A DNA stretch of 26,248 nt, from the IMG/VR virus record IMGVR_UViG_3300019093_000054, positions 1 through 26,248 of that record; one strand, given 5' to 3'. This stretch comes from a virus. Shown here piece by piece: positions 1,752 to 24,453 of this stretch. Position 1 is the stretch's first letter. Each line of letters opens with the position of its first letter. A program made the position numbers and the translations under genes. Below the pieces are notes generated by a model. That model was not told where the DNA came from and ran no database searches. It saw only the letters and a program-made list of their open reading frames with translations.

Positions 1752-4700
1752 TTATCCTGGTAGTCCTGCTGCCAGTCTAATCGCTATGGATTCGGGCGTT
1801 GAACTGTTTTCTAATCCAGCCAGTCTTTGTGTCACTGTTGTACTGATATTTGCACCGGAGTTACTGACAATTGGATTATGAAACTTGTCAACCAAGGGCA
1901 CAACTACATTGCCTGTGGGTGCATTTATCCAAGTGGTCAAGTGTACATTACCAGCCAATCTTTGTGGCTCGCTAGAATCAACCACGCGACTTCCTGCAAC
2001 GTGAACTAAGCGAGCACCAGTTCCGTCAACACCGCGACGAATTTGACTCAGCGTATTGGTTGCCAAATTGCGACCATAATAGGTAATTTTTTCACCATTG
2101 ATAAACACCACACCAGGCAATAGTGTGTCTATGCCCGGGGGTGGCAGTGCTGATGCATTGGCAACGCGAATGGTTGTATCAGTTATATTCAAATTACTGG
2201 TCAATACAGTTATGTTGGTCGGACTAATGGTATAGTATTCGGGCCATGAATTTTTACGTACACCAACCACTGTTACTGCTTGATCAACATCATTGACATA
2301 GATGGATCTATCATCAGCAACAACAAATCCATAACGATCTATTCCATGTTGGTAGTAGTCATACACAGGGATTCGATCGCTGGTGATTGACGCAACACCT
2401 GGACCAAATGCCACTGCTGTGTTGGCCAGCGGATTCGCATGATCCAAATACACTTGCGAGATATATGTAGGTTCGGGATACACGTTGGCAACTGTGATGG
2501 TGTCAGACAATTCCAACATCAACTGTGTGGCCGAATCATTGTTCATGCCATGATAGATACGATATCCAACATTGGCAGTACCTGAATACATCTGTGTCCA
2601 CACTTCTATGTTCAAGTTGTCATACAGGCGTCCAGGTATCAACTCCTCTGGTGCATGACTGCTGTATTGATCCACATAAGCACCACCAGTGACATTGATA
2701 TCCTCAGGCCGGGTACCTAGTGCTGTATCAAGATACGAGCTTTGAATAATCGAATCCATGTCCAACGGATTGTTTTCGTTGTAGTAGGTCAATGTGATTG
2801 GTGTTCCGGCATTTTCGTCAATCACAGTTATTGCAACATTGGCAGACTCTGCAGGAATAGCAGAATCGTAGTATATAAAAGCCCGATCGTCTTGTATTTG
2901 ATTGATGGTCCACTTGCGGTTATTGGTAACAACATTGCCATACAGGGCTGATCCCGAAACGGCTGCACCCGATACTTCGATGGTTTGTCCGGCTGCAAGG
3001 TCCACCTTGTCAAAATTGAATTTACCAATATCGGTGGTATAGATGGTGCTGTTGCCAGCAAAGAATCGAAGCACGTTGCTGGTGACACTTACTTTCTGAT
3101 CGTATTTTATGCCAGAGACTTTTACGCCTGGATAACCAATGCCAGTGTATAATTGTTCTAGGTCCCTAGCAGGCATACCCGAGCCCGGAGTGTAATAACC
3201 AATAGTTCTATCGTTGGCATTGTCAAATTCATTGGCAGCAACTTTGACATACTGTGTATAGTCAAATATATTACCGGCCAGAACTGTGGCCACATTCGCT
3301 CTGTATACTTTATCAGAATCATTGTCTCCGTCGTAACGAACAGTGTCTCCAAGATAATATACAGTATTTGGAGCCCAATCAACTATGTTCGAAGTGTAGT
3401 TGATTCTATCAAATTTGATGGTGCTACTGATACTTCGAATAGTATTGTAATTGTTTGCTGTGTCAATCTTGTAGTACACATTGTGCATTCTGGCAATAGC
3501 TCGAGCATTGCCTTCGATTACAACATTGGGTCGAGTGATGTATCCTGTTCCAGGATTTGTAACAGTGACTGAACGAACAGTGCCATTTCCAGTCCAGATG
3601 TTGGCCGTTGCTTTGGCGCCACTGCCACCACCACCTGTGATAGTAACATTGGGCACAGAGGTATAGTTGCCACCAAAGTTGTACACTTTGATACTGCTGA
3701 CCTGGTATTTGTAGTTGTTGTACCAATTTGAATATTCTGCTCTCAGTGCTGTTGGTAAACTGGCCATGAAATCAGGATCTTCAATATTGCTCACAGTGGG
3801 ACTATGATATGTTTTGGTGCTTGAATCATATCGACTGGGCAAATCAAAGTCAGTGATATTGCCATTGAACAAATCATCTCCGGTATAGTCAAGCAAGTAT
3901 TCTCTTATCTGTGTACGATAAGGTTTGACTTCGTTGATGTAATCCTGATAGTATGTTTGATTATCTCGAATATAACTTGGGTACTGATCAAGTTTTCTAA
4001 TCTTGTGTAATACGCTAATGAAACTGGTTTTAAAAATCCAGTCTGTAGATTTTTGCTCACTCAACAAATAGTTGACCAACACAAAGAATAATTTATTAAA
4101 TTCTGCATCAAGATATTTGACAAAAATATCGCTTTGGATGGCGGCAAAGATATTTCGTATTTCTTCCACTGGATGTTCATCAAATCGGTTGGTATCAAAA
4201 TCTCCAGAGCCAAACGCAGTGTTGTTGACAGTTGGGTCATACAATGCTGAACTAATTTGTATTGTGCCGTTATGTAATCCAACCAGCGTGGTAGATTTAT
4301 CGGCATTTGCACGATAATATGCGTATCGTCCCGAACCATCATTGTTGACCAATACGATATCATCAGCAACCAATTGTGCGCGAATTGTTTCTAGTTCAGC
4401 CAAGGTCTGAACTGTCCAATTGGTTTCCTGACTGGCATTAAATGTATTATCGTACCAATCCACTAGATCAATATATTGATCAGTACGATATGTCTGCACT
4501 CTTTGTAGTACAAATTCTTTGTCAGCATCCAACACATAGATTGCCCAAAGTCCATTGTATTGTGTGTCTGCTGTCACTAGAATCTTGTATCCAACAGGCA
4601 ATACTGTTTTATCAACATAGGCAAGATCTTCATAGTTTGATGTTTTGAAATCCCAGGCACCTGAATTATCCGATGGGTATTCGGCGTTGGTGTAGAATTT

Positions 4701-7700
4701 CTGTGTATCAAATTCCAGTACTATGGGGTATTGAATCATGACCTGGTTACAATAATCCACAAAGGCCCGCAACGCAGAGAAACGATTCTTAAACACCGAC
4801 TGCATGGGTCTTGATTCGATACCAATCTGTTGATTGGTTGGCAACTTGGGATTTGGTACCAAACGATAATCTGCAGTTTCTCCAACAAGGCTATCTATGA
4901 TTTTGTTTATGATCTTGGCGGGTATTACACTTGCGGCTGTGTTTTCTTTTATCAACTCATATTCGCTATGAATAATATTTTCATTGGGGACAACACTATA
5001 TGCAATTTGTAATATGGCATCAGTGTCAGAAATATAATGATTGATGTTGTACAAATTAAATGCGTCTGCACGAATTGCGGCCGCATATGAAACGCCAGAA
5101 TTTTGCGGATTTTCAATGATATTTGCCACATCGGCAGCTGTCTTTGTTTTGTTGGCTGCAAACGGATCTGATGTATTTTTGTTCACTACCCAAAAATAAT
5201 ATTTGTTGACAATTACGCCAGTGGCATTGTCAACATTGTAGGACAAAGAATATGTGCTGTTGTCGTTGAACTTGGGTGTACCTGAACCAGTGTAACTGGC
5301 AGGCGGCAGCGAGCTTTCGACCCATTCACATACTTCTATGGTGCTACCAGGAAACAGTTTGCCCCAGTTCTTGCTTCTATAAACCAAGGTGTCTTGTTCG
5401 TAGTCAATGTAACGACAAGCATCAAGATTCCACCATAGTTGACCCACTTGTTCTGCACCCCAGGCAGCAGTGGTTCCCACATAGTTAAATGTAAAAGGAG
5501 TTCTAACACTGTCTTCGGCTGTCTGTGGTTGAAAAGTGTCAATGACTGGGTTTGATTGATTGTACTTGGCCGGATCGTAGCTGGTGATGTAATCTAGTTC
5601 TTGCTCGGCGATGCCCAATATCTTGCCTTTGGCAGGATCAATTATGTCTAAATTTGTTTGTATCTCGTTGGTCTTTTTGTTGTACACAAACATTTTATTT
5701 AGATTGGCAGTATCAACCTTGGCATTGTGCTGTCTGATCAGTTGCCATGATGGTTTGTTGCCATTGTTGACGTAAGAATACACTTCGCCAGCATCTAGCA
5801 CCATGCGACTATCTCGGTCGGCGCCAATAATTAATAATCCGCCAACAGCATCTATACTTGCACCAAAGTTTGCGCCAGATTCTGCATAATCTGAAATTAT
5901 TTCTTCAACAGAAATAAATTGCCCAGGAGTTGTAACATTGTCGGGTGTGGTGGCAATATAGTCAAATACAAATACTGCCCCCGAAGCTGGGGTTACATTT
6001 AACAGTCGAGTTGAATCTTGATCTAGTGTGGTATCGCCTTGATCCATTGTTTGAAGTTCTGTTGCTGTTGCGCCGGAGCTACCAACAAATACTGTGTTGG
6101 CTGTGTCAGATACTTTGACTGTTGTGCCAAAGCGTTGTGTATTGTCTGTGTTCGGATGTTCGATGGCCTGAGTAAATGCATACACCTCAAGCCCTAGATC
6201 TGCCAATGGATGTGTGCCGCTGCCGGGTAAAATATCCAGGCGTTTATTGGCAACAGCAACCGTCGAGTTGATCACCAAATGCCCATTGACTACCAAGGCA
6301 GCAATGCCCGGAATACGTGTCGCATTGATATCAGTGGCCACACTGGTCACTGTGGTGCCTGTGAATACCACTTCAATACCATTGATAAAAATACTGTTGC
6401 CCAACGTCACAGTTGGATTGGCTGCTGAGCCAGTTATGGTTCCATATACTCGACCTTGGTTCACATACCTGTATACACGACCAGCATAGTACTGAGGTCG
6501 TGTATAGTAGGGTGCGCCAACATACACTGAACAATTTAAATTGCAAATGTCAACAGCATATCCAAAACGTGCTTGGTTACTGACGTTGTCAAGTCCCAGT
6601 ACTTTTACCAAATTAAAAGAATTTATTTCAACTTGTACCAGGCTTCCTCTTGTGGGAGCCTGAACAAATTGTACACTATTACCATTAACAAAATAGTTTC
6701 CAACAAAGGTTTGCTCAACACCATCAACAGTTACAATCAAATCCTCATATGGGGTTGGCAAAGATCTACGTGGTGTAAATGTATTGCGGGTGCCGTCACC
6801 AATGAATGATTCTACAATTCTTTGATGTACTGTGGTGATACCAGCCAATTGTGTCCCAGCAACAAGAGCACGTGGATCCCCCACAACAATTTCTCTACCA
6901 TCAGTGGTTGTCTTAATTGACGATCCCCATTGATCATAAGTTACTCCAGACGCCGCAGGAGGAGTCAACGTGGCTATTAGTTTATAAGCCTGAGCCTGTT
7001 TAAACGTTATAGTGACATCATTAACTGGTTCAACAAATGTTACCACATTGCCAGCAAGAGTAAAATCCACATTGGCCACATAGGTATGATTGTCTCCGGT
7101 TACCACCAGAGTATCGATACTGATCGGGGTAAAAGATAATGTGAATTCTACTGGAGCAACATAAATTCCAGTACCTGGATCTAGTGTCAAATCTATGTAA
7201 TCTTTTACATCAACTGAATAAATGCTTGTGGTCGGAGTAGTTACGCCGTACACATAGACCTTGTTGGCACCCGGAGCACCAACATAAATCCAACGATCGT
7301 CTTTGCTCATGCTGATGGACTGACCAAATAGATCATCAGCGGCACCATCAGGCGCCCGTAATATCTGAGCAAAGTTAGAACTCAATCCAGAGTTGTAATT
7401 GTATAGAAAAACCAACCCTTGGTTTGTCAGTGATCCAGGAGCACCTATTGCCAGTACATTGGTTCCTGAATCAATGCTGGTACCAAATTTTAAATTGCCT
7501 CCCACTGTTGAAAGTTTCACCAATGCTTTGATTGGATCACTTTCTAAGAACTGATTTGTGTTTTGATCTATAGAAAATGTTCTAACAACATCAGCATCAG
7601 TTGCTGACATACCGCTGGGTTGTCCTACCAGTAGTGTGCCGCCGTTGCGGCTTATTTTTACTGCGGTGCCGTAAAGACTATCACGTATATATTCTTTAGA

Positions 7701-10700
7701 AGCCAAGGTGACTATGGTATTGCTTTTCCACACATCAAACTTTTTGTATACAGACCAACGGCCTTCACCTTGGTCATTGTCTGCCCAAACAATATCGTTG
7801 GCTCTCCATTTGTCTAATGGCTCTTTGCTGATGATTCCCGAGCTGTTGTCAACCCTCATGGATTCTAATTGGAACAACAGTCCCGAGCCCGACACCGATG
7901 ATAATTTTTGTAGGGTGGCGGCATTTCTTGCTGCCACAACATAGAAAGTGTTTGACGTATCCAAATCAAACACTCTATAAAATCCATCAAAATCTGTGTC
8001 AAAATTTCTAATAGCAACAACATCACCTATGGCAAAATTGTGTGATCCATACGTGGTTACCAATGCCAGGCCATTGAGAGCGTAATTCATCTCAATCACA
8101 AAGTTATCGGTCTCATTTACTCGATAAACGTTCCAGTCGTCTACAAAATCCTTTGCCACCCAAATTTTGTATCCGGCACCAACATTGTACAAGATATTGT
8201 TTAGTGTTGTATATTCACGTATGTCAAACAGTGTTGCATCAACATCGGCCAAGTTCACGTACCCTGCAGTGATTGGAATGCCAATATCTTTGGGTGCAGT
8301 TTGATCTGTTAGCAAATTGGGATTGTAATAATTTGGACGATGATACAAATTTTCTGGTGTTATACCAATAATTTGATCTGGTACAGTGTCATTGGTATTT
8401 AACAATACCAATGTTTCCGGATCGCTGGTAAACACCTGCTCATCAAGCACAATTTCTACGAAATCGTTGCTGTCAGTGGCGCCATATTCGCCCACACGTA
8501 ACGCCCACTCTTCAAAAGTTTCAATACTGCTTTGAACGTTGTTTAAAGAAACTTGACTGAATGCATCAACAGCGTTACGAGTTCCTTTTTGTTTGATATA
8601 GCCTTGATAGAATTTGACCTGTGTTTCAATGTCTAGGCCTAGATCTGTTAGGTAACTGCGCTCGCGGAATCCAATCAAGCTATTGCTGAATTTGTTGAGC
8701 TGTAGATTCTGAGGTTGATTGTTGACGTCATAAAAATTATCAAACTCTTGTGCGCTATAACTCAAATTATTTAATAGACCAGTCTTGATTTGATTTTCTG
8801 CAATCTGCTTCCATTGACTGCTCAAAAACTCTGAAGTTCCAATGAGATTGGTCAATGCAACATAATAGTTATTTTTATATACTACTAGACTGCCTTTTCT
8901 ATAATCAGTGTTGGCAGTCCATGCATCAACAACGCCGTTGTTGTAGATGAAACCTGGAATATCTAATTGACCATTCCAAGAGCCGGTACGATTGCCCACC
9001 AGTTTTAATCTAAACTGACGATTGCCCAATTCAGGTTTGTAAATAATGTCGTTGAATAATGTTGCATTATCAAAGATTAGTGCGTGTTCATATTGAACAA
9101 CATTTAATTGTGCAAAGCCAATGGTCTGACCACTGTGTGCCTTTAGTTTGAATTGATTGCCGTATCGAATCACAGTGAACTGAGAATTCTTAATAACATT
9201 GCTGTCTTGATCCAGCAGTTTGCTACCATAGATATTGTTTTCAATATAGTCAACTGTGCCTGTGGTGTTTTCGATCACAATCTGATCAATGATTGGACTC
9301 AGTACCAGTAGGCTTCCAGATCTCCAACCTTGTTGACTCCAAGTCAAAAATTCACGGGCGCTCAATGTCCAGTCTTGTGTGGTGTTTAATAGATCGCTGT
9401 AGGCATCAAATCTCATGCCTTGACCGATTAGATAACGACCATAGCTGATCAAAAAGTCAACTACCTGTTGGCGTGTGTTGAATTCGTATCCATAGGGAAT
9501 ACGAATTTTGTAATTTTGAAAATCTTGATAGATGATGCCAACCGTTGATCCTACTTCAACACGTGCCGCATTGTTGTTGGCCAGGCTAGGAATAATTGTA
9601 AAGAACGGATTCTCAATGTCATAACCACTTATGGTCCAACCATTGCCACTGCGCTGTACAATCACAGCACTGTAATTGATCTTCTTGATCGGTGTCGATT
9701 TGTTTAGAAAGATTTCGTAGTTGTTGTCTGGAATAACAATACTTTGATTGGTACTGGTAGGAGAACTCTGTTCAGCAAGAATTTTGACATAGTTCTTGCC
9801 AGTAAAGCCTGCCAGTTTGTAACTTAATTGTACATTTAAACTGCTTAGATAGTTGACAATCTTGACACCAGGGGAGATACCTAGGCTGGTCAGATAATCA
9901 CCAATCCAGTTGATGTAGCCCACTGTGCGTTGACGAGTACCGCCGACTAGACCATTTATCTTGATTGCCGTTGGCGTAATTCTCTGTAGTGTATCAGCAA
10001 ATACAACTTGATTTAGGTATGGATTGACATTGTAGTTGTCCACATTCATTAGCGTACCAAAGTAGAATCCAGGGCGCATCAATGATATTATTTGTTGTAG
10101 AGCAAAAGGATAGTCACTGCTACGGCGCCAAGCATTTTCTGCTGGACCAATGTCACCCACTGAAAAACTGGCATTAGTTTTGATACTGCTGAAATTGGCA
10201 ACTAAAAATTTGTCTGGACTACGTAGATTTCCTGCATCATCAACCGGAATGATTCTTAATAGATTAGGTCTAGCAAATCGTGTGTCGTAGCGATCCTCGC
10301 CGTAAATGTAGCCTAGACTCAAGTCTGTCCACAATACCAAGTTACCCCCGGTATAGGGTGCGGCGCCGTAACGATTTTCCCACCAAGCAGGCTTCTCACT
10401 GAATCCTAACATTTCCCAAGGTGCTCGATGCGGACGATCTGTGTCATAGTAATACTTGAATACTGCTCGCCAGCTGCCAGGCAACTGTTTGCCGTCAATG
10501 ACATCATAAAAGTTTTTGTAATTCCAACTAAACGAATCATTGGAATTATAACTGTTATTGGTTGTATAGTTGACTCTGTTACTGCCAATCCATTTCAAGA
10601 ATGACGTTGTGAGTATGTTATTGAACTCGGTGAGATTATAATCTGTGACTCTAAAACGACCAGGTAGATAATCATACAGATCAATCAAGGTTGAATCATA

Positions 10701-11099
10701 AGTGACCTTGATATTGTTGAATATTCTTGTTTCAAGTTCCAACAACATCTGATCACGGTAGTCTCCAAATGTTGGAGTCATACTGCCATCATGTCCCTGT
10801 ATCACTGTGGTAGGCGTCAGGTAAGTATCATCCGTAAAAATACTTGGAACAAATTTTGGATATAGTCCCAGTTTGGTAGGTGTTTCGGGCACGTAACTGC
10901 CGTTGGTACTGATGTAATCTTTGACCACAATCAAATCATTATAAAGTTGCGCCACCTGTTGCGTTAATGTGACGGCCGGACGATCTTGATTAAAATAGTA
11001 ATCGCGTCCTTTTACCAAGGCTCGTTTGCTAACAATGATGGGATTATTTTTAGCATCCAACACTAGATTGCCGTAGGTGTCTTTTTTTGGTTGTGGCAT
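1752..11099 (-). CDS. Giant baseplate/tail structural protein, probably C-terminal part of a larger polypeptide
   Basis: This 3115-codon frame encodes a virion structural protein of the giant type seen beside gp6 in cyanophage- and pelagiphage-like myoviruses. Its modules include a carbohydrate-binding-like W..NT.Y..G..V.Y segment near residues 725-765 and a second near 2574-2620. Seven FG-GAP-like beta-propeller repeats lie between about 1130 and 1790 (FGTSIDSGTNVLAIGAPG, FGQSISMSKDDRWIYVGAPG and others). A WW/EWVES-containing segment lies near 1873-1976, a helical stretch (HKIRKLDQYPSYIRDNQTYY) near 2370, a YTSVPNVTITGGGGSGA beta repeat near 2480-2530, and a VVFINGEKITYYG domain near 3000. 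The ATG at 11099 has no ribosome site and lies 50 bp inside the preceding frame. The two frames join smoothly if one A of a seven-A run is skipped, so this start may not be real. The function is inferred to be baseplate periphery or fibre platform; no T4 gp7-gp10 homologue is recognisable. Confidence 0.8.
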   Translation of the reverse strand: MPQPKKDTYGNLVLDAKNNPIIVSKRALVKGRDYYFNQDRPAVTLTQQVAQLYNDLIVVKDYISTNGSYVPETPTKLGLYPKFVPSIFTDDTYLTPTTVIQGHDGSMTPTFGDYRDQMLLELETRIFNNIKVTYDSTLIDLYDYLPGRFRVTDYNLTEFNNILTTSFLKWIGSNRVNYTTNNSYNSNDSFSWNYKNFYDVIDGKQLPGSWRAVFKYYYDTDRPHRAPWEMLGFSEKPAWWENRYGAAPYTGGNLVLWTDLSLGYIYGEDRYDTRFARPNLLRIIPVDDAGNLRSPDKFLVANFSSIKTNASFSVGDIGPAENAWRRSSDYPFALQQIISLMRPGFYFGTLMNVDNYNVNPYLNQVVFADTLQRITPTAIKINGLVGGTRQRTVGYINWIGDYLTSLGISPGVKIVNYLSSLNVQLSYKLAGFTGKNYVKILAEQSSPTSTNQSIVIPDNNYEIFLNKSTPIKKINYSAVIVQRSGNGWTISGYDIENPFFTIIPSLANNNAARVEVGSTVGIIYQDFQNYKIRIPYGYEFNTRQQVVDFLISYGRYLIGQGMRFDAYSDLLNTTQDWTLSAREFLTWSQQGWRSGSLLVLSPIIDQIVIENTTGTVDYIENNIYGSKLLDQDSNVIKNSQFTVIRYGNQFKLKAHSGQTIGFAQLNVVQYEHALIFDNATLFNDIIYKPELGNRQFRLKLVGNRTGSWNGQLDIPGFIYNNGVVDAWTANTDYRKGSLVVYKNNYYVALTNLIGTSEFLSSQWKQIAENQIKTGLLNNLSYSAQEFDNFYDVNNQPQNLQLNKFSNSLIGFRERSYLTDLGLDIETQVKFYQGYIKQKGTRNAVDAFSQVSLNNVQSSIETFEEWALRVGEYGATDSNDFVEIVLDEQVFTSDPETLVLLNTNDTVPDQIIGITPENLYHRPNYYNPNLLTDQTAPKDIGIPITAGYVNLADVDATLFDIREYTTLNNILYNVGAGYKIWVAKDFVDDWNVYRVNETDNFVIEMNYALNGLALVTTYGSHNFAIGDVVAIRNFDTDFDGFYRVFDLDTSNTFYVVAARNAATLQKLSSVSGSGLLFQLESMRVDNSSGIISKEPLDKWRANDIVWADNDQGEGRWSVYKKFDVWKSNTIVTLASKEYIRDSLYGTAVKISRNGGTLLVGQPSGMSATDADVVRTFSIDQNTNQFLESDPIKALVKLSTVGGNLKFGTSIDSGTNVLAIGAPGSLTNQGLVFLYNYNSGLSSNFAQILRAPDGAADDLFGQSISMSKDDRWIYVGAPGANKVYVYGVTTPTTSIYSVDVKDYIDLTLDPGTGIYVAPVEFTLSFTPISIDTLVVTGDNHTYVANVDFTLAGNVVTFVEPVNDVTITFKQAQAYKLIATLTPPAASGVTYDQWGSSIKTTTDGREIVVGDPRALVAGTQLAGITTVHQRIVESFIGDGTRNTFTPRRSLPTPYEDLIVTVDGVEQTFVGNYFVNGNSVQFVQAPTRGSLVQVEINSFNLVKVLGLDNVSNQARFGYAVDICNLNCSVYVGAPYYTRPQYYAGRVYRYVNQGRVYGTITGSAANPTVTLGNSIFINGIEVVFTGTTVTSVATDINATRIPGIAALVVNGHLVINSTVAVANKRLDILPGSGTHPLADLGLEVYAFTQAIEHPNTDNTQRFGTTVKVSDTANTVFVGSSGATATELQTMDQGDTTLDQDSTRLLNVTPASGAVFVFDYIATTPDNVTTPGQFISVEEIISDYAESGANFGASIDAVGGLLIIGADRDSRMVLDAGEVYSYVNNGNKPSWQLIRQHNAKVDTANLNKMFVYNKKTNEIQTNLDIIDPAKGKILGIAEQELDYITSYDPAKYNQSNPVIDTFQPQTAEDSVRTPFTFNYVGTTAAWGAEQVGQLWWNLDACRYIDYEQDTLVYRSKNWGKLFPGSTIEVCEWVESSLPPASYTGSGTPKFNDNSTYSLSYNVDNATGVIVNKYYFWVVNKNTSDPFAANKTKTAADVANIIENPQNSGVSYAAAIRADAFNLYNINHYISDTDAILQIAYSVVPNENIIHSEYELIKENTAASVIPAKIINKIIDSLVGETADYRLVPNPKLPTNQQIGIESRPMQSVFKNRFSALRAFVDYCNQVMIQYPIVLEFDTQKFYTNAEYPSDNSGAWDFKTSNYEDLAYVDKTVLPVGYKILVTADTQYNGLWAIYVLDADKEFVLQRVQTYRTDQYIDLVDWYDNTFNASQETNWTVQTLAELETIRAQLVADDIVLVNNDGSGRYAYYRANADKSTTLVGLHNGTIQISSALYDPTVNNTAFGSGDFDTNRFDEHPVEEIRNIFAAIQSDIFVKYLDAEFNKLFFVLVNYLLSEQKSTDWIFKTSFISVLHKIRKLDQYPSYIRDNQTYYQDYINEVKPYRTQIREYLLDYTGDDLFNGNITDFDLPSRYDSSTKTYHSPTVSNIEDPDFMASLPTALRAEYSNWYNNYKYQVSSIKVYNFGGNYTSVPNVTITGGGGSGAKATANIWTGNGTVRSVTVTNPGTGYITRPNVVIEGNARAIARMHNVYYKIDTANNYNTIRSISSTIKFDRINYTSNIVDWAPNTVYYLGDTVRYDGDNDSDKVYRANVATVLAGNIFDYTQYVKVAANEFDNANDRTIGYYTPGSGMPARDLEQLYTGIGYPGVKVSGIKYDQKVSVTSNVLRFFAGNSTIYTTDIGKFNFDKVDLAAGQTIEVSGAAVSGSALYGNVVTNNRKWTINQIQDDRAFIYYDSAIPAESANVAITVIDENAGTPITLTYYNENNPLDMDSIIQSSYLDTALGTRPEDINVTGGAYVDQYSSHAPEELIPGRLYDNLNIEVWTQMYSGTANVGYRIYHGMNNDSATQLMLELSDTITVANVYPEPTYISQVYLDHANPLANTAVAFGPGVASITSDRIPVYDYYQHGIDRYGFVVADDRSIYVNDVDQAVTVVGVRKNSWPEYYTISPTNITVLTSNLNITDTTIRVANASALPPPGIDTLLPGVVFINGEKITYYGRNLATNTLSQIRRGVDGTGARLVHVAGSRVVDSSEPQRLAGNVHLTTWINAPTGNVVVPLVDKFHNPIVSNSGANISTTVTQRLAGLENSSTPESIAIRLAAGLPG
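11050..11099 (-). other. Frame junction: 50-bp overlap at a seven-A run, likely one gene
   Basis: The upstream frame ends ...LVYYATTKK then RHLRQSSVGC and stop; the downstream frame starts MPQPKK then DTYGNLVLDA. Between them the coding strand reads ACC AAA AAA AGA CAC, with seven A in a row (11082-11088). Moving into the +1 frame on this run, or reading six A instead of seven, gives ...LVYYATTKKDTYGNLVL, which continues naturally into KGRDYYFNQDRPAV. The fusion would be about 4172 residues. A +1 slip is mechanistically plausible because lysyl-tRNA can re-pair with AAA while AGA, often a rare codon, is in the A site. A homopolymer sequencing or assembly error explains it equally well. Confidence 0.7.
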
Positions 11100-14000: not shown

Positions 14001-14271
14001 CAATGTAGTTGCCAAAGAATTCTGTATCACCCGATTTGTTCTTGATAACAGCACTGGGTTCCAGTTGATAATTTTGTCTCAGTGTTGAGGATTCTTTTAT
14101 GTAGTAGTCAGCTGATTTGGCAGTGGGCGAAAATCGACGACCAATATAGCCATTGATTTTTTGAAAATTAGAATCAGAAACCAACTGATCCAAGGTAGCG
14201 TTGAGAAACTTTTTGTTGGTATCGGTGCGGAATACTTCAGGTAATAGGTTTACTGTTTTATTATTGGCCAT
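11050..14271 (-). CDS. Large baseplate structural protein, probably N-terminal part of the giant protein
   Basis: This 1073-codon frame directly follows gp6: its ATG overlaps the gp6 stop by one base (TAATG) and a GGAG ribosome site lies 7 bases upstream, inside gp6. The N-terminus (NLLPEVFRTDTNKKFLNATL, residues 8-27) and FDFDKFVNFNQYYWLPNGPD (near 121-140) are typical of the large structural protein next to gp6 in marine T4-like phages; this is from memory of the family. Residues about 180-245 form a cupredoxin-like sandwich (GGTYNFIVNQPGIPFWIQTE, later GVTNNGEDVGTVTFVVP) without visible copper ligands. The rest is beta-rich. Its last ten residues (RHLRQSSVGC) look like an out-of-frame tail after a seven-A run, and the true product probably continues into the next frame. 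By position after gp6 it could stand in for T4 gp7, but I see no sequence match to gp7. Confidence 0.8.
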   Translation of the reverse strand: MANNKTVNLLPEVFRTDTNKKFLNATLDQLVSDSNFQKINGYIGRRFSPTAKSADYYIKESSTLRQNYQLEPSAVIKNKSGDTEFFGNYIDLLQQIEYYGGNIADHDRLFKSKCYSYNGLFDFDKFVNFNQYYWLPNGPDAVTVSCAGAPLTANITVTRDTATGSYKFSTEDGALNPELFLVHGGTYNFIVNQPGIPFWIQTESGTSGLRLGQPNTSSRQIFGVTNNGEDVGTVTFVVPMPDSQDSYNELNLAYEVDIAVDIPYNQVQGLTVAEIVANGGLDGATTNFSTKKIIFVGQSYTNADWTPIDVFDATPVPVQDRYTVWTINLVDDGNGGQVVDLVNPLPITNTQKVFVLGGVSYANTQYLIASGKWSRIPVVTAAAPYLYYQDNLASTMTGSIRLISTTGTLINVDTEILGKTYFKSPNGITFTSGLKIQFDSSVTPTSYANKSFYVEGVGTAIKLISVEQNTSIGTYITDPTTHDYVTINRASIDRNAWSRTNRWFHIDVITAAATYLNQFPSVTQAQRALRPIIEFEPDLQLFNQGNLAKDQVDILELTKITNAFLQVENYSTNNSQYADITVGGTTFRFNVGDRIIFAADTDPLVKNKIYVVSIFNLTNDQITPDYRVHLELAADSVIAVDETMWVRKIYTVNGLVTNEEYWFDGAIWSKSQQKTAYNQSPLFDIFTSNNVSLSYRGDSSTFAGTRILSYKIGSGRSDQVLGFPLSYRNFQNVGDIEFSNDFDADTYQYLINKVPVVEPVNNYFIRKNTVNGGHVFRNVWTENKEETKQYQIFNYTFTGETNYFVVDVAPESANGSANLVVYRNDGKILDTVDTADYSIVSVNGKQAVRVNVNILTVGDVITIKIYSNTVSTIGAYEIPKNLDLNSLNNTFASLTLGQIRNHLVTLTHNTNQVVGVVPGVSNLRDLAVKDATGSILQHQSPAIYSNLFLLDRDVNFIKSAEYAQKEYTKFKNKFLELSLTSGLVDTNDIPSSVDAIVSEINRYKNSKFAWYYSDMVPYGSNLQPSTTYQILDAAIRQYEITTIFDDTQLSDRAVLVYYATTKKRHLRQSSVGC

Positions 14272-17200
14272 TAAACTGCTCCAGAAGTCAATGCTAGTGT
14301 CTGATTGATTTGTGCCGCTGTTACTGCGCTGATGATTTCTACATCGTCAACTGTGGCAGCACTGATGATAATTTCATTGGCTTCAGAATTGATTTGATAC
14401 AAGGTACCAAATCTGACTGCACTATCGTTGGGAACAATAACAATACTGGCAATGTTAGGTGTTAGGGTGGTGTGTAAATATGCACTCAACTCTGAGAAAT
14501 AAAATGTCTCACCAAAATCCCATTGACCAATTGCAAAGTATGTGTTGATAGCATTGATCACAGTACTCTTGACGTCGTTGTCGCTGATGACAATGTTGGA
14601 ATTTTTAACAATTTTAAATTTGGCCTGTAGTGCAGGATCTGCACGTAAACCAAACAAGGGCTTGAATTTTGCTGTGTTGTATATCAATGTGTCACTCAAT
14701 GCTTTGTAATTTTCTAATCCACTGAACTCAATTTTTAAGGTCTCGTTGGTGGGTGCCACTGGTTCTGCAACTGCGCCGCTGGTATCTTGTATCCAGGCTG
14801 CATAGTCGGCTGCATACTGTTTTGTTAAAATATACAAGTCCATAATGTTGTTTGGACTTGGATCAATGCGTCGATAGTTGGGACTGTTGTGACGATACTG
14901 GAAGTACAACCGCTGACGACCAGTGTATGCTGCCAAGTCTGTGCGTACCACAAGACTTCTCACACTGTTGACTATAGACAATTCGTAGAATATTTTTTCT
15001 GTGGTGGCATAGAACAACTGTCCACTTTCGTAGATGTTGATATAGGTCCTGATATCGTTTTGAGTAGCGTAGGTGCTGACAACCAGAGCATTGTCATACG
15101 GTTGTGTGTACAAGAACTGGTTGGGATCATTCACCGACTGTTGGTACACATACTTGGCTGAAGTATTCACCAAGGGATTTACGATGTTATCAAATAGGTC
15201 AGGATTGTCTGGAACACCATCGCTGTTGCTGTCTGGAAAAGTCACCAAGATTCTGCGTGTGCTTTGATAACCATCGGGTTCAACCATATTTTTGTAAACG
15301 TACCAAGTTTGGTCTTGGCCAATGGCTTCACGACTGTCGGGTTGATTGTTGATTTTTAATACATTGATTTGATCATGTAGGGTAAGTCCAGTTCTTGTGT
15401 CGTACACTTTGACCCGTTCGTCAAAATAGAAACGTGTTTCTCGTTGGCTTTCAAAGATATAATCAATTCCTCGATAGTCGACTCGATAGTCGATGCCGTT
15501 GTAGCTGAGTCTGATCAACCAACTGGTGTCCAGGGCTTGTCCTGTGGTATCACCAGCACGAGACAAACTAAAATCATATGCATTTGATGCTGTGTTCAAA
15601 TTGGCAGATTCAATTATGGACCAGGTTTGGGTCGAGTCGTCGTAGCGCAGTCCAAATGTTTTTTTGCTTTGGATATAAGTTTTTACGGTGTCGGTCAAGG
15701 AGCTCAAGAAATTGTTTTTAAACTGAGGGACAATTTGATCAATGATGGCAGAGTCAGGGACCATTTCGCCCAATGTAATAACGGTGTCGTTGATGTCCAT
15801 GACACCTGCATAGATATAGGTGCGATCACCACTCAGTGTTGGTGAACCGGTGACAATCTGATTTTGTGCATTGAAATATTTTCCTGTGCCGGCTGCAAAT
15901 CTAATGATAGACCCTGTGCGAACATAACGAAGTTTGTTCGATAAACCCACATCCAATACTGCGATGGCAGTTGTGCCATCTTCACTTAGATATCCCACAC
16001 TGCCAGTGCTTAGTTTTTGTGTTGTAGTCCACAGTATGGTAGTATTAGGCACATATCGTGTGTATGTCTTATAGTATAAGTGTTCTAATTCTTTGGCATC
16101 CAACAAAGGAATAATTTGATTGTAAACAATCTTGGAAATTTCTGTGGTGCTGTTCCATTGGAAATTGAAGCTGCCAGAGAATTCATTGCGATACAACCAA
16201 CCATCTTCAGCAAACACATTGGTACTGGAATACTTGCCAGTTACATCAAGCACATCCAAGTAACGACTGACACCAGAACTGGTCCTATTGACTGCTTTGA
16301 CTTTTAGAATGTTGGCATATTGAGTGTAAGGAAAAAGATTATAGTCTTCTCCGGTGACCATACGATTCTGTGCATAATAGTTTTGTGGGGCCTTGGTACG
16401 AATATCATCAATGGTTTCTTTGGCACTGGCGTTGGCCACTGTGTAGTGCAAACTTGCACGAATAGTCAATGTCTCGGCGCGACCACTACGGCTGGTATAA
16501 GTCAATGGTATGATGATGTTTTGCATTTCATCCGGAGTGATCTTATAGCTCAATCCATTGCTTTGACGATAATACAATCTAAAGTTGCCCTGTGGCACAT
16601 TTGTAAAGGCGCCGTCGCCAAATACCAAATCAATTTGATCGTTGGTGCGACTACTGACTTGGTAAAGATTCTTTTCAGCAATGTTGTTGTAGATCACATT
16701 GGTGCCCGACACCGACGGGACAGCTTTCCAAAGAGTCTGTTCGTTGTTAAAACTGTCCAATGAATACAACCAAACATCGGTATTGTTGATGTTGTCAAAA
16801 TTGATATTGACCACACGATTAGGCAAATTATCAGCAATGGTAAAATCTTGTGTGTTCATTACCCCTTGCTTGAAATAAAGGAAGAATCCAGTGCTGTTAC
16901 TGCTGTTGCCCAGGCTGTCATTGCGATACAATATATTGAAGTTGGCACTGGCACTGGGAGTTCGTTCGTAGATATAACTTTGTTCGGCAGTGGTTGCATT
17001 GACTGCTTCGAAGTTCATTTGAGCCCCATTGACTATGCTAGCAAATCTAAACACTGGCGTTTGTCCCGGCGTCAATTGCACTGTGTATTCTTCGGTTTCA
17101 ATACCATTGATAATCTGTGTGTTACCAGGTTTGCCTACAACTTGGCTGGATACAAAGGCGGCATTCAAAATTGCGTTGAATTGTTCTTGCCAAGAATCAT

Positions 17201-17645
17201 TGGCACTGTCATTCCAGTTGATTGCTAAGTTTGCTACATCTAATCCATTTGTGTCAACTACTGATTCGGTAGTACTGATACTGCTGATTTTTAGCAGTCC
17301 AGTACTGGCAAGATTACGTTTGGGGTTATAGCTGATCAAACGAGCCAGTTTGAGAATACTGTCGCGGCGTTCTGCTGTGTCTATAAAGTTTTCGCGAGCA
17401 TTTAGGTCTGTGCGAAATGCAAGGCTTTGTCCCAAGAATGCAATTAGGTCAATAAGAGCAATGTATTCTGAACTTTCAATGAAGTCGTTGAAATCTTCAG
17501 GATAATAAGTTTTGATATAGTCAATCATGCTCTTGCGAAGAGTCTCGAAGTCGTAGCTCTGAAAATCTGCTTCGCGGAAAGTCTGGTACAAGGTCTTCCA
17601 ATCCTGTTGTACCAGTAAACTAGTTTGTCTTGTTGTAATTGCCAT
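14271..17645 (-). CDS. gp6: Baseplate wedge protein gp6
   Basis: gp6 joins neighbouring wedges into the ring at the core of the T4 baseplate. The 1124-residue product starts with a conserved gp6-like helical region (WKTLYQTFREADFQSYDF at residues 16-33, then YYPEDFNDFIESSEYIALID and the Arg-rich ENFIDTAERRDSILKLARLI near 85-104). It ends with the Baseplate_J-like C-terminal pattern INTYFAIGQWDFGETFYFSE near residue 1040. T4 gp6 is 660 residues, so this one is much enlarged, mostly in the middle. Residues 804-819 read DSNSDGVPDNPDLFDN, a thrombospondin-type-3-like calcium loop. The start has a modest AGGG site 8 bases upstream and a clear late-promoter motif at 17661-17671. The family call is firm; the roles of the inserted regions are unknown. 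Confidence 0.9.
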   Translation of the reverse strand: MAITTRQTSLLVQQDWKTLYQTFREADFQSYDFETLRKSMIDYIKTYYPEDFNDFIESSEYIALIDLIAFLGQSLAFRTDLNARENFIDTAERRDSILKLARLISYNPKRNLASTGLLKISSISTTESVVDTNGLDVANLAINWNDSANDSWQEQFNAILNAAFVSSQVVGKPGNTQIINGIETEEYTVQLTPGQTPVFRFASIVNGAQMNFEAVNATTAEQSYIYERTPSASANFNILYRNDSLGNSSNSTGFFLYFKQGVMNTQDFTIADNLPNRVVNINFDNINNTDVWLYSLDSFNNEQTLWKAVPSVSGTNVIYNNIAEKNLYQVSSRTNDQIDLVFGDGAFTNVPQGNFRLYYRQSNGLSYKITPDEMQNIIIPLTYTSRSGRAETLTIRASLHYTVANASAKETIDDIRTKAPQNYYAQNRMVTGEDYNLFPYTQYANILKVKAVNRTSSGVSRYLDVLDVTGKYSSTNVFAEDGWLYRNEFSGSFNFQWNSTTEISKIVYNQIIPLLDAKELEHLYYKTYTRYVPNTTILWTTTQKLSTGSVGYLSEDGTTAIAVLDVGLSNKLRYVRTGSIIRFAAGTGKYFNAQNQIVTGSPTLSGDRTYIYAGVMDINDTVITLGEMVPDSAIIDQIVPQFKNNFLSSLTDTVKTYIQSKKTFGLRYDDSTQTWSIIESANLNTASNAYDFSLSRAGDTTGQALDTSWLIRLSYNGIDYRVDYRGIDYIFESQRETRFYFDERVKVYDTRTGLTLHDQINVLKINNQPDSREAIGQDQTWYVYKNMVEPDGYQSTRRILVTFPDSNSDGVPDNPDLFDNIVNPLVNTSAKYVYQQSVNDPNQFLYTQPYDNALVVSTYATQNDIRTYINIYESGQLFYATTEKIFYELSIVNSVRSLVVRTDLAAYTGRQRLYFQYRHNSPNYRRIDPSPNNIMDLYILTKQYAADYAAWIQDTSGAVAEPVAPTNETLKIEFSGLENYKALSDTLIYNTAKFKPLFGLRADPALQAKFKIVKNSNIVISDNDVKSTVINAINTYFAIGQWDFGETFYFSELSAYLHTTLTPNIASIVIVPNDSAVRFGTLYQINSEANEIIISAATVDDVEIISAVTAAQINQTLALTSGAV

Positions 17646-17694: not shown

Positions 17695-18072
17695 TTAAGC
17701 ACGGGTCAGTGTTTGTGATTGATTGTCAAAGTTAAAAGCCAATACATCTACTTGATTTGTATCTATAAACAGTAGTTCTATTTCTATTTGAATTCCGTAC
17801 TCGAACTGCGTTACTATGACATTTGTTGCACGGGTTCTTGGATCATAGGCCACAATACGTTTGACATCGTCGACCATGAGACTGCGTGTTTCTTCAGTTA
17901 GAGGTTCAAACATCATGTTCCATATTATGGTACCAAAATTTGGCTGCATGAGTTTTTCGCCTTTTTTGACATTAAAATTGTTGAACAAATCCTGTTTGAT
18001 CAGTTCGTGGTCGGTCAATCTAAACTTTTTTGTTCGATTATATGTACTGAAACCTTTGTATAGTATAGCCAT
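17695..18072 (-). CDS. gp25: Baseplate wedge protein gp25
   Basis: gp25 is a small wedge protein of the conserved contractile-injection core; it binds gp6 and gp53 and contacts the sheath. The 125-residue product is close to the 132 of T4 gp25 and fits the GPW/gp25 family. It has an N-terminal YKGFSTYNRTKKFRLTDHEL, then the FGTIIWNMMFEPLTEETRS block at about residues 55-74, the DPRTRATNV segment that corresponds to the family's conserved R-rich turn near residues 90-98, and the C-terminal IQIEIELLFI strand. It starts 8 bp after the gp5 stop, with a GAGG site inside the end of gp5. Despite the historic 'lysozyme-like' label of the family, no catalytic role is expected. Confident call. Confidence 0.93.
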   Translation of the reverse strand: MAILYKGFSTYNRTKKFRLTDHELIKQDLFNNFNVKKGEKLMQPNFGTIIWNMMFEPLTEETRSLMVDDVKRIVAYDPRTRATNVIVTQFEYGIQIEIELLFIDTNQVDVLAFNFDNQSQTLTRA

Positions 18073-18074
18073 AA

Positions 18075-18086
18075 CTGTATTTACCC
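18075..18086 (-). promoter_or_regulatory. Possible weak late promoter at gp25 start
   Basis: The minus strand reads GGGTAAATACAG just before the gp25 ATG, overlapping the gp5 stop codon. It shares GGGTAAATAC with the sequence before the collar gene. It is only 2 bases from the start codon, so a transcript beginning downstream would lack a ribosome site and perhaps the start codon. It may be a chance match or serve the downstream gene gp6 instead. Confidence 0.15.
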
Positions 18087-20837
18087 TCTACTCAATGGTG
18101 TCTGAATGTGTGGTGGATCCTTGGGGTTCAACCATTGTAGACCGTATTTGGACAGCAATCCCAAACTGCTCATTCTTGTCAGTTGTTCTGCTGGACAATC
18201 CATGGCAAAGCCGCGGCCGTGCTGTCCTGGAGATTTCAGTGGCATACTGATACGACCATACTGAGTATTGACTGTATTTTTGCCGCGACCACCGCCTTCG
18301 ACCCAGGCATTGTACAGTTTGGTTTGATCGTCTGCGGTACGTAGGCTACTGTTACATATCAGTTTCTGTCCAGTTTTTTCTTTGTATTCTTTGGCTGCAC
18401 CCAGCACCATTGCACGGAATTTGGCATCACATTGATTAAAACGTTCCAGTGTGCCCGAACCTGTGTTGCCTCGGGCGGCTGGTGTAAACTGTATGACATC
18501 TGTAGGATTGATATTTTGTGCGGCAGCGGCAGCGGCAGCTGGTGTCAGAGCCTGTGTACTGGCCAGGCCAGTACTGCGTGTGGCCAATCCGCCATTGAAA
18601 CTTGCTGTTGTTCCGTTGCCATTGAGAGCCAGAATATCAATGGCATATCTACCACGGTTGTAATAAGTTGCGCCATCTGTTCCATTGGCATCTCCGCCTA
18701 CTGCACTGTAACGCCATTTTCTAGCACCACCAGCGCCCAACAGGTGTGCCACACAAATCATACCTGCCACAGTGCATAGATCATCATCGGCATTGATGCC
18801 ATATTTGCCATCACTTCTTGCAGTGAGTGCTTTGTAGTTGGCTGTCATTAGGTCAAACATGACTTTTTCTTGTATTGCCTTGTTGGCAAGATAATCAGTG
18901 TCACTGTTGATATTTTCTTTGCCGTACCAAGCATCAGCATAACGCACTGCTCGTGTCTTGTATTGTGTATAATAATCCAGCTTGATATATTTTAAGTCAG
19001 TAAAGGCAGCGGATCCAAGCTGATAGCGGCCTAGATAATTACCATTGGCAGCTTCACGGATATCATAATTGTAACGGCTTTCACTGTAGGCCATCTGTGC
19101 CATGACGCATTTGACTTGGTACTGACTCAATGGGCCAATTGCCCCAGGCGGATTAGGAGCATCATCTCTACGGACCCATTCAGGAGGAACAGGTTTGGTC
19201 ACTGGCTTTTTCTCGGCTGCTGCCGGTCCTGGATCTGCGGCGGCGGCACTGATCCTAACTGGTTGTCCACTGCCATCAGTCACTGCTTGACCGTTGCCGT
19301 CTTTGACCACACTGCCTTTGGGCACACAGTTGATTGGTCCAATATATTGTGCAGGAGCTCCGCCTTCGGACACGCTATCAGGACCTTGATTGCCGTTGGG
19401 ACTCAACCCTGTGCCTTGGCCAACGCCGGTTTGTCTGGTCCAAGGTTCGTGTGCTGGTGCCACGGTGACAATACTGTCAATGGCATTGGGCACAGATTCC
19501 CAGGCCGATGTGGCGTTGAGCTGACTGGCATCATTGTGTACATAAGTTTTCATTTTGCCAGGTGCATTGACCGACACACCGCCACCACTGTTTAGTTTGA
19601 TCTGCGAGCCCACACAGTACAGCACTCCATCGGTGGTAAAAGTACCTTTGCCACTGGCCGACAGGTGTATGTCGGCATCGCTGCCAATGTTCATACCACC
19701 AGCAAACAACGTAGTTTTACCAATGGATCGCATGGTCAATGCATTGGTTTCTGCGTTGATGGCTGTGGCAGCCTTCATGTTTATAGAGTCATCAGCGTTG
19801 ATGTTGATACTCTTGTCGCTGTGCAGGTTCAAATCACCTTGTGTGCGTATGTTCAGTCCGCCGGCACTGAATATATGCATTTGGCCGTTTTCAGCAAATT
19901 CCAGCCATACACTGCCTTCACTGTTGGCAATGTACATGACCTTGTTGCTGTCGCTCATCAGGATCTGATGGCCGCTGGCTGTGCGTAATCTTACTAGACT
20001 GTCAACACCCAATATGTCGCCATCGTCCATGACAAATTGATGACCACCTTGGCGAGCGCCTGTGGGCAGGTCGTCTTTGGTCAGTGTTCCTTCTTCAAGT
20101 TTCTTTTGAAAATCTTCATTGGTAGCCGGATCGTTCACAAAGCGTCCCGGGGTGCTGATACCAAACACTGTACTGGGACTTTCACGCTGGCTGCTGGATG
20201 AGATGGCACCGCGCACTTTGTCTTTGTCCAATCCCTGCGTTAACAATCTGTTGTATTGTGCTTCGTGTACCGGCTTGGGGTTGTTGTAGAAAATGTCATT
20301 GACCGAGCCTGGAGTATTTTCATTGAATTCAGTCACCGGTATCACACTGGCACCAGACTTGATTGATGCCTTGACATCTGCACTAGTAGAATCTGTGTCT
20401 ATGTTGTTGCCAGCAGCCATGCCTGGAGTCATGTATGTGCTGACTGTACCGGGTATGCAAGCAAACCAAAATCCACGGTCAGGATCACCGTTGACAAATG
20501 TACACAACACCTGATTATCTAGGTCTGGTGGCACTGCCCACATTCCGTAGGTGTGTAGGGCCACGTCCCATTTGTTTGTGGTGTTGTTGGCATTGGCTGC
20601 ACCGGGTGCAGTACTTCCAAAGAATGGACTGGCATAACTGACTGTGCGCCAATTTTTAGAATCATCTTCCTGCCCACCTAGATCTGGAATCCAAATCTGT
20701 AGTCGACCTGAACGTGCAGGATCTAGATTGTTTTTCACAATGCCCACAAACACCGCGGTGTCTAACTTGACTCCGGTGGCAGAGTCGCGGTCTGCCCACT
20801 TGGGTAATTTGTTGCCTACTCGATTATTGCTTGCCAT
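18081..20837 (-). CDS. gp5: Baseplate central spike gp5 with two C-terminal hydrolase-like domains
   Basis: gp5 forms the membrane-puncturing spike at the tail tip. Residues about 25-130 are the N-terminal OB fold (AVFVGIVKNNLDPARSGRLQ, then LCTFVNGDPDRGFWFACIPG). Residues about 290-430 are a beta-helix of short repeats (GGLNIRTQGDLNLHSDKSIN). A Pro/Ala-rich linker (530-560) leads to a lysozyme/SLT-like domain (about 565-740; candidate catalytic E586 in AYSESRYN, then GRYQLG at 603-608). A seven-Ala linker (767-773) is followed by an M15-like peptidase domain (about 797-918; SSLRTADDQ, HGRGFAMD with H873 and D880, DPPHIQ with D907 and H910 as expected zinc and catalytic residues). The T4 gp5 lysozyme lies before the beta-helix instead. 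The ATG directly follows the previous stop (TAAATG), with AGGA 12 bases upstream. The gp5 call is firm; the enzyme activities are inferred. Confidence 0.9.
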   Translation of the reverse strand: MASNNRVGNKLPKWADRDSATGVKLDTAVFVGIVKNNLDPARSGRLQIWIPDLGGQEDDSKNWRTVSYASPFFGSTAPGAANANNTTNKWDVALHTYGMWAVPPDLDNQVLCTFVNGDPDRGFWFACIPGTVSTYMTPGMAAGNNIDTDSTSADVKASIKSGASVIPVTEFNENTPGSVNDIFYNNPKPVHEAQYNRLLTQGLDKDKVRGAISSSSQRESPSTVFGISTPGRFVNDPATNEDFQKKLEEGTLTKDDLPTGARQGGHQFVMDDGDILGVDSLVRLRTASGHQILMSDSNKVMYIANSEGSVWLEFAENGQMHIFSAGGLNIRTQGDLNLHSDKSININADDSINMKAATAINAETNALTMRSIGKTTLFAGGMNIGSDADIHLSASGKGTFTTDGVLYCVGSQIKLNSGGGVSVNAPGKMKTYVHNDASQLNATSAWESVPNAIDSIVTVAPAHEPWTRQTGVGQGTGLSPNGNQGPDSVSEGGAPAQYIGPINCVPKGSVVKDGNGQAVTDGSGQPVRISAAAADPGPAAAEKKPVTKPVPPEWVRRDDAPNPPGAIGPLSQYQVKCVMAQMAYSESRYNYDIREAANGNYLGRYQLGSAAFTDLKYIKLDYYTQYKTRAVRYADAWYGKENINSDTDYLANKAIQEKVMFDLMTANYKALTARSDGKYGINADDDLCTVAGMICVAHLLGAGGARKWRYSAVGGDANGTDGATYYNRGRYAIDILALNGNGTTASFNGGLATRSTGLASTQALTPAAAAAAAQNINPTDVIQFTPAARGNTGSGTLERFNQCDAKFRAMVLGAAKEYKEKTGQKLICNSSLRTADDQTKLYNAWVEGGGRGKNTVNTQYGRISMPLKSPGQHGRGFAMDCPAEQLTRMSSLGLLSKYGLQWLNPKDPPHIQTPLSRG
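18519..18539 (-). repeat. Hexanucleotide repeat encoding poly-Ala linker in gp5
   Basis: Three copies of GCTGCC followed by GCA encode seven consecutive alanines (residues 767-773). They sit between the lysozyme-like and M15-peptidase-like domains of gp5 and probably form a flexible or helical spacer. Such short repeats can change length by slippage. Confidence 0.7.
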
Positions 20838-24150: not shown

Positions 24151-24453
24151 TTATAGTCCCAAATCTTGTTCTAGAGTGGCCTGCTTGGGAATATAAATGG
24201 TTATGCCCGACACAAAATCAAATATAGGATCTCGTATGACATCGGGATTACGAACAGCAAACACCCACCATAGGCTGCTGTCGCCGTACAGGTCATAGGC
24301 CAGTAGGTCTGGTCGATTTTGATAAACTTTGTCTATGGTATAGTAAACATCGTCTACCTGTTTGGTAATGGTACGTGAGTCCAGTACGTCTAAGAAATTA
24401 CCGTACAGGCCAGTGTTGTAGTAGGCACTTTTCTTTGAATAAGCAACAGCCAT
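24151..24453 (-). CDS. gp53: Baseplate wedge protein gp53
   Basis: gp53 binds gp6, gp7 and gp25 in the T4 wedge. This 100-residue protein shows the family core: YYTIDKVYQNRPDLLAYDLY at residues 37-56, then LWWVFAVRNPDVIRDPIFDF at 62-81, and a LysM-like end GITIYIP. T4 gp53 is 196 residues, so this is a short form holding only the conserved core. Its ATG overlaps the previous stop (TAATG), and the strongest ribosome site in the window (AAGGAGGA, 24462-24469) lies 8 bases upstream, inside the previous gene. That fits translational coupling and high output for a six-fold wedge component. Confidence 0.87.
   Translation of the reverse strand: MAVAYSKKSAYYNTGLYGNFLDVLDSRTITKQVDDVYYTIDKVYQNRPDLLAYDLYGDSSLWWVFAVRNPDVIRDPIFDFVSGITIYIPKQATLEQDLGL

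Follow-up and report, generated by a model that had tools for sequence, protein, structure and literature searches.

The stretch of viral DNA analysed here, called the window throughout, is 26,248 nucleotides long. This 26-kb virus record is a T4-like baseplate cluster, and every gene listed in it from Pfam and PHROG matches lies on the minus strand. A single open frame (18081-20837, minus strand) encodes a baseplate hub and central spike protein of the gp5 type with 918 amino acids. The hub gene is flanked by a gp53-like gene (24151-24453, minus strand) and by gp25 (17695-18072, minus strand), and gp6 (14271-17645, minus strand) belongs to the same baseplate cluster. A virion protein of 1103 amino acids is encoded between the gp53-like gene and the hub, and more tail genes are likewise found on the minus strand. 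The gene order gp53-x-gp5-gp25-gp6 is similar in PA5oct-like and CBB phages. The core of the hub comprises an OB-fold region (residues 29-127; 20457-20753, minus strand) and a triple-stranded beta-helix (about residues 312-431; 19545-19904, minus strand) with octad-like repeats in its sequence. The OB fold is recognized by PF04717, with the best stretch at residues 96-127 (E 3.8e-6, above the cut-off), while the DUF2345 match to the helix at residues 321-431 has an E value of 1.2e-4 for the protein and lies under the curated cut-off. Homology to the annotated hubs of PA5oct-group Pseudomonas phages starts at residue 29, and tblastn gives 35% identity over residues 29-431. Alignments and structure models show that an OB fold, a helix, a linker and predicted lysozyme-like and M15 domains follow each other in one chain, an arrangement conserved family-wide. 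We consider it likely (probability about 0.78) that this protein, with its two predicted C-terminal peptidoglycan-degrading domains, serves a T4-like contractile-tailed phage as central spike. A search for PAAR tips and GH24 lysozymes in the window's record and seven relatives (fragment records) yielded none, except for one PAAR gene in a record of 277 kb. Among PDB sequences, neither the full hub protein nor the first domain profiles had a relative; a cupin match from this search had a low score and was rejected as chance. CHAP was sought and is absent. The window also encodes a protein of 3115 amino acids (1752-11099) that contains FG-GAP repeats and matches CBM5/12 weakly; it is probably a fibre or adhesin.

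Two enzyme-like domains beyond the beta-helix

The sequence-only reading had placed two enzyme-like domains past the beta-helix, and profiles, AlphaFold2 models and conservation bear this out: both are present (residues 558-743 and 775-918), real and conserved. The residues it had proposed as catalytic, E586, H873 and H910, were found exactly at these numbers and were chosen correctly. When structure prediction was run per domain, an M15 fold was predicted for the second domain and a lysozyme-like fold, with moderate confidence, for the first.

The M15 metallopeptidase domain (residues 775-918; 18084-18515, minus strand) was delimited by its AlphaFold2 model, by Foldseek and by invariant residues. 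The model, calculated from a nine-sequence alignment, has a pLDDT of 85.8. In a Foldseek search of the PDB, its first 14 matches were all M15 enzymes, the best being Ply500 (2vo9; E 2.5e-4, probability 1.00), and the structures matched were those of Ply500, BaLdcB, ChiX, VanYB, LdcB and LysECD7. A profile built from 15 relatives gave ten weak matches among PDB sequences, nine of them M15 enzymes, and residues 798-914 match the PHROG endolysin family phrog_2649 (E 6.5e-6). The Pfam family VanY reaches E 0.0087 on the C-terminal fragment, with 16.3 bits below a curated threshold of 25 that is a sensitivity setting of the Pfam model and no property of the enzyme; weak VanY matches recur in nine of nine near relatives. 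Because VanY alone stays below its threshold, the M15 call rests jointly on fold, motif and profile. Across 18 of 18 hubs, with identities of 33-97%, R833, Q838, H873, G876, D880, D907 and H910 never vary, and D880 (codon 18198-18200) and D907 (18117-18119) complete the M15 signature HxxGxAxD...DxxH alongside the previously named H873 (18219-18221) and H910 (18108-18110; all on the minus strand). Motif and model together establish the predicted domain as a member of peptidase family M15 (VanY/Ply500-like). A peptidase activity is predicted, and endopeptidase and carboxypeptidase are both compatible with it. In the isolate phages searched, from one phage collection, the M15 domain had no significant match, and none of them was found to carry M15 at this hub position beyond the helix. 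The "peptidase" of HRDY3 was rejected as an isolate counterpart; it combines a VgrG3-like hydrolase with VanY, but is a tail protein without OB fold or helix.

The lysozyme/transglycosylase-like (SLT) domain (residues 558-743; 18609-19166, minus strand) was assigned from phrog_27932, AlphaFold2, Foldseek and PF06737 matches in relatives. Residues 564-777 match phrog_27932, annotated as hub and tail lysozyme, with E 2.6e-26, and the domain shares 34% identity (E 8e-21) with a hub domain of Ochrobactrum phage ORM_20 and phiM9-type (Rhizobium/Agrobacterium-type) phages. Its AlphaFold2 model is almost wholly helical (pLDDT 78.2), with low confidence at model residues 28-42, which include E586 (codon 19080-19082, minus strand). 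Foldseek matches of this model in the PDB are lysozyme-fold throughout the top ranks (phi6 lysin, phiKZ gp144, g-type lysozyme, MltE) and none is significant (best E 0.2); among predicted viral structures, the matches are other hub proteins. Pfam has no family for the window's own SLT domain, for which NCBIfam gave a single weak match to an aggregation-promoting factor, while PF06737 (Transglycosylas) matches 8 of 27 homologues (best 3.8e-5). Of 46 aligned homologues, 37 retain the equivalent of E586. Thus, the assignment of residues 558-743 as a predicted glycan cutter is good, but weaker than the M15 call.

Tethering of the domains and proposed working of the spike

At the helix end the protein carries the motif AHEPW (residues 462-466; 19440-19454, minus strand), and this THEP motif aligns across all hubs compared except the Rak2-like ones. 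Enzyme-less hubs, such as PAC2 (477 aa) and SCTP-2 (476 aa), stop shortly past a THEP-type motif, hence the simplest explanation is that the enzymes were appended past the ancestral C-terminus. In the window, AHEPW is connected to the SLT-like domain by 91 residues among which Ala, Pro and Gly are frequent (residues 467-557; 19167-19439, minus strand); this linker was delimited by conservation and the composition of residues 432-557, and is probably flexible. Since enzyme-less hubs end at the helix-end THEP motif and the linker follows it, the tether starts at the helix's distal end. The domains may be located at the needle tip, and both a seat ahead of the tip and one beside the needle are compatible with such a chain. 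Residues 432-557 have no match among phage records. Several architectures share a TDGxGxPV...DPGP-type segment ahead of the SLT domain (window 19167-19439; loci L032, L038 and L070), and none was found in hubs without SLT. Of the seven-Ala linker described in the sequence-only reading, the run itself is present between the domains (residues 767-773; 18519-18539, minus strand), but it is not conserved; it is limited to the closest relatives and missing in L003 and L006. Where other hubs have THEP, the Rak2-like ones (L034, L035, L015) show motifs of the HIH/HTH type close to the end of the helix, which call to mind spike tips that bind metal.

By analogy with gp5, three copies of the spike protein would form one needle. 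Upon sheath contraction the helix would pierce the outer membrane, bringing the tethered domains into the periplasm. There, the SLT-like domain could cut the glycan strand with E586 as catalytic residue, and the zinc peptidase, with H873, D880 and H910 as putative ligands and D907 as general base (assigned from Ply500-type M15 enzymes), could cut the stem peptide. Acting jointly, the two might then make an opening in the sacculus through which the tail tube passes. In evolution, the domains would have been gained past the ancestral C-terminus near the THEP motif, and some relatives have a third enzyme inserted.

Other arrangements have to be weighed against this scheme. That the C-terminal domains flank the helix instead of riding on its tip, or are cleaved off as free lysins, appears rather unlikely to us. 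The probably flexible stretch of about 91 residues ahead of the SLT domain is in line with it, and T4 gp5 is itself cleaved during assembly; however, an unsystematic look identified no cleavage site, and by topology the linker begins at the distal helix end. Similarly, the M15 domain alone might be active, with the SLT-like domain now serving mainly as a peptidoglycan-binding or structural module. The equivalent of E586 is gone in 9 of 46 homologues, including L041 (7164-7712) and L044 (7191-7754), hubs with an additional transglycosylase-like module, so that the domain can persist after losing its catalytic Glu, and the M15 residues are never lost in the 18 hubs. The window and all its closest relatives nevertheless retain E586, within a GRYQ or GKYQ motif in nearly all of them (GRYL in L006 and L007), and we regard this alternative as improbable. 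Evolved VgrGs also carry C-terminal enzymes, namely a hydrolase in V. cholerae VgrG3 and a metallopeptidase in P. aeruginosa VgrG2b (PMC6899460), and after their example the domains could act as effectors following entry or in host lysis, with no role in entry itself. With the hub gene embedded in a phage baseplate cluster (gp53, gp25, gp6), and one spike per virion that, by T4 analogy, would meet one host at entry, this seems very improbable.

Enzyme series among related hubs

A hub-core profile search of viral contigs recovered at least 593 relatives, of which the best 80 were read together with earlier loci. Among these 90 hubs, the window included, 44 lack the SLT domain (some being truncated or having other long C-termini), 28 have SLT only, 10 combine SLT and M15, and 8 carry a third enzyme in addition to these two; this sample is tilted to near relatives, contains near-identical contigs and yields no frequencies. 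An M15 domain without SLT was never seen among the 90 hubs. The third enzyme is a GH19 in L038 and L039 (Pfam above the cut-off in L038), a lysozyme-like module in L058, L066 and L070 (phrog_30077 matches in L058 and L070) and a transglycosylase-like module in L040, L041 and L044 (phrog_196/4928 matches in L040 and L044). In the hubs of L038 and L039 (both 4929-8192), GH19, SLT-like and M15 domains all lie past the helix. Architecture labels are strongly clustered on the hub-core tree, with 11 changes compared to a shuffled mean of 39.8. The series from no enzyme over SLT and SLT+M15 to X+SLT+M15 (X, the third enzyme) on one hub tree is a natural experiment in the acquisition of enzymes by entry machines. 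The SLT homologue of phiM9 and ORM_20 precedes the helix (hubs of Rhizobium-type phages with this order: L008, 5005-7581; L009, 2996-5566), and as it follows the helix in the window, the domain must have moved relative to the needle in either lineage. In one clade of hubs, the helix is followed by hundreds of Ala/Gly/Ser-rich residues and no recognised enzyme (L076, 4917-8339; L090, L093, L095, L096, L107, L116).

Comparison with known spikes and tail enzymes

The sequence-only reading implied that two enzymes past the helix set this spike apart, which does not hold: the CBB and 2.275.O hubs have M23-like and GH24 domains there, and Atu_ph07 a lysozyme-like and a trypsin-like one. A C-terminal lysozyme has been published for RaK2 gp078 (PMC3622015), and a lysozyme and M23-like domains, the latter as possible peptidase domains, for CBB_240 and its homologues (PMC5259590). 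Evolved VgrGs have enzymes in the same place as well, and the idea as such was thus already known. The Rak2-like hubs (RaK2 gp078, CBB_240, K64-1 and Vibrio phage 2.275.O) share OB fold and helix followed by M23-like and GH24 domains, but differ from the window in their enzyme families, in that the peptidase-like domain comes first, and in helix-end motifs other than THEP. Both HxxxD and HxH are missing from the M23 region in CBB, K64-1 and 2.275.O (motif-less hubs: L034, 3429-6113; L035, 3435-6095; L015, 3998-6649), so this region is probably inactive and the M23+GH24 pair is probably not one of two active enzymes. The hubs of Agrobacterium phage Atu_ph07 and Sinorhizobium phage Phosso likewise have OB fold, helix, THEP motif and a lysozyme-like region; their second domain, however, is trypsin-like, outside the wall peptidase families, and is intact in Atu_ph07 and degenerate in Phosso. 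The Phosso hub (L037, 3417-6551) contains a very long Gly/Ser-rich linker, and its trypsin-like domain reads NAQ and GMAGG.

Neither the pairing with M15 and its strict conservation nor relatives with three enzymes appear to have been described in the open-access papers and the one phage collection searched. We see an even chance that contractile-phage spikes stack up to three wall enzymes past the needle (e.g. GH19, SLT-like and M15), with the peptidase site strictly kept and glycan cutters added or swapped, and that this is the first beyond-helix pair in which glycan- and peptide-cutting sites are both intact. If true, stacked enzymes would serve on hosts with a wall that lysozyme alone does not open. 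Both domains are also compact candidates for enzymology. Known hosts of phages with T4-like spikes are Gram-negative; for the window, a search of genome contigs returned MAG contigs only and pointed to no reliable host. According to a review of virion lysins (PMC6116005), endopeptidase domains are almost confined to phages that infect Gram-positive bacteria, and a T4-like spike in which a fully conserved predicted M15 peptidase adjoins a glycan cutter would depart from this rule.

T4 gp5 has the same OB fold and helix and brings a wall enzyme in the virion, but this is a single lysozyme of another family, ahead of the helix. The hubs of Sinorhizobium phage phiM9 and Ochrobactrum phage ORM_20 use the same SLT-like domain family; there it stands before the helix, as does the T4 gp5 lysozyme, and M15 is missing. 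Evolved VgrGs also have an enzyme past the spike helix, yet they are secretion-system effectors with one enzyme and no role in phage entry. A peptidoglycan hydrolase with an endopeptidase domain has been described at the tail tip of phi29, gp13 (PMC9662197). While this tail-tip endopeptidase is a parallel, gp13 is a podovirus knob protein without spike helix, its endopeptidase is of the M23 type and the host is Gram-positive. The phi29 protein also has a lysozyme-like domain. In Anabaena phage A-1(L), the hub gp15 unites lysozyme, endoglucanase and peptidase domains in one protein, with measured action of the latter two on host cells (PMC10966104). There, in contrast to the window, the enzyme domains sit on the hub, apart from the spike protein.
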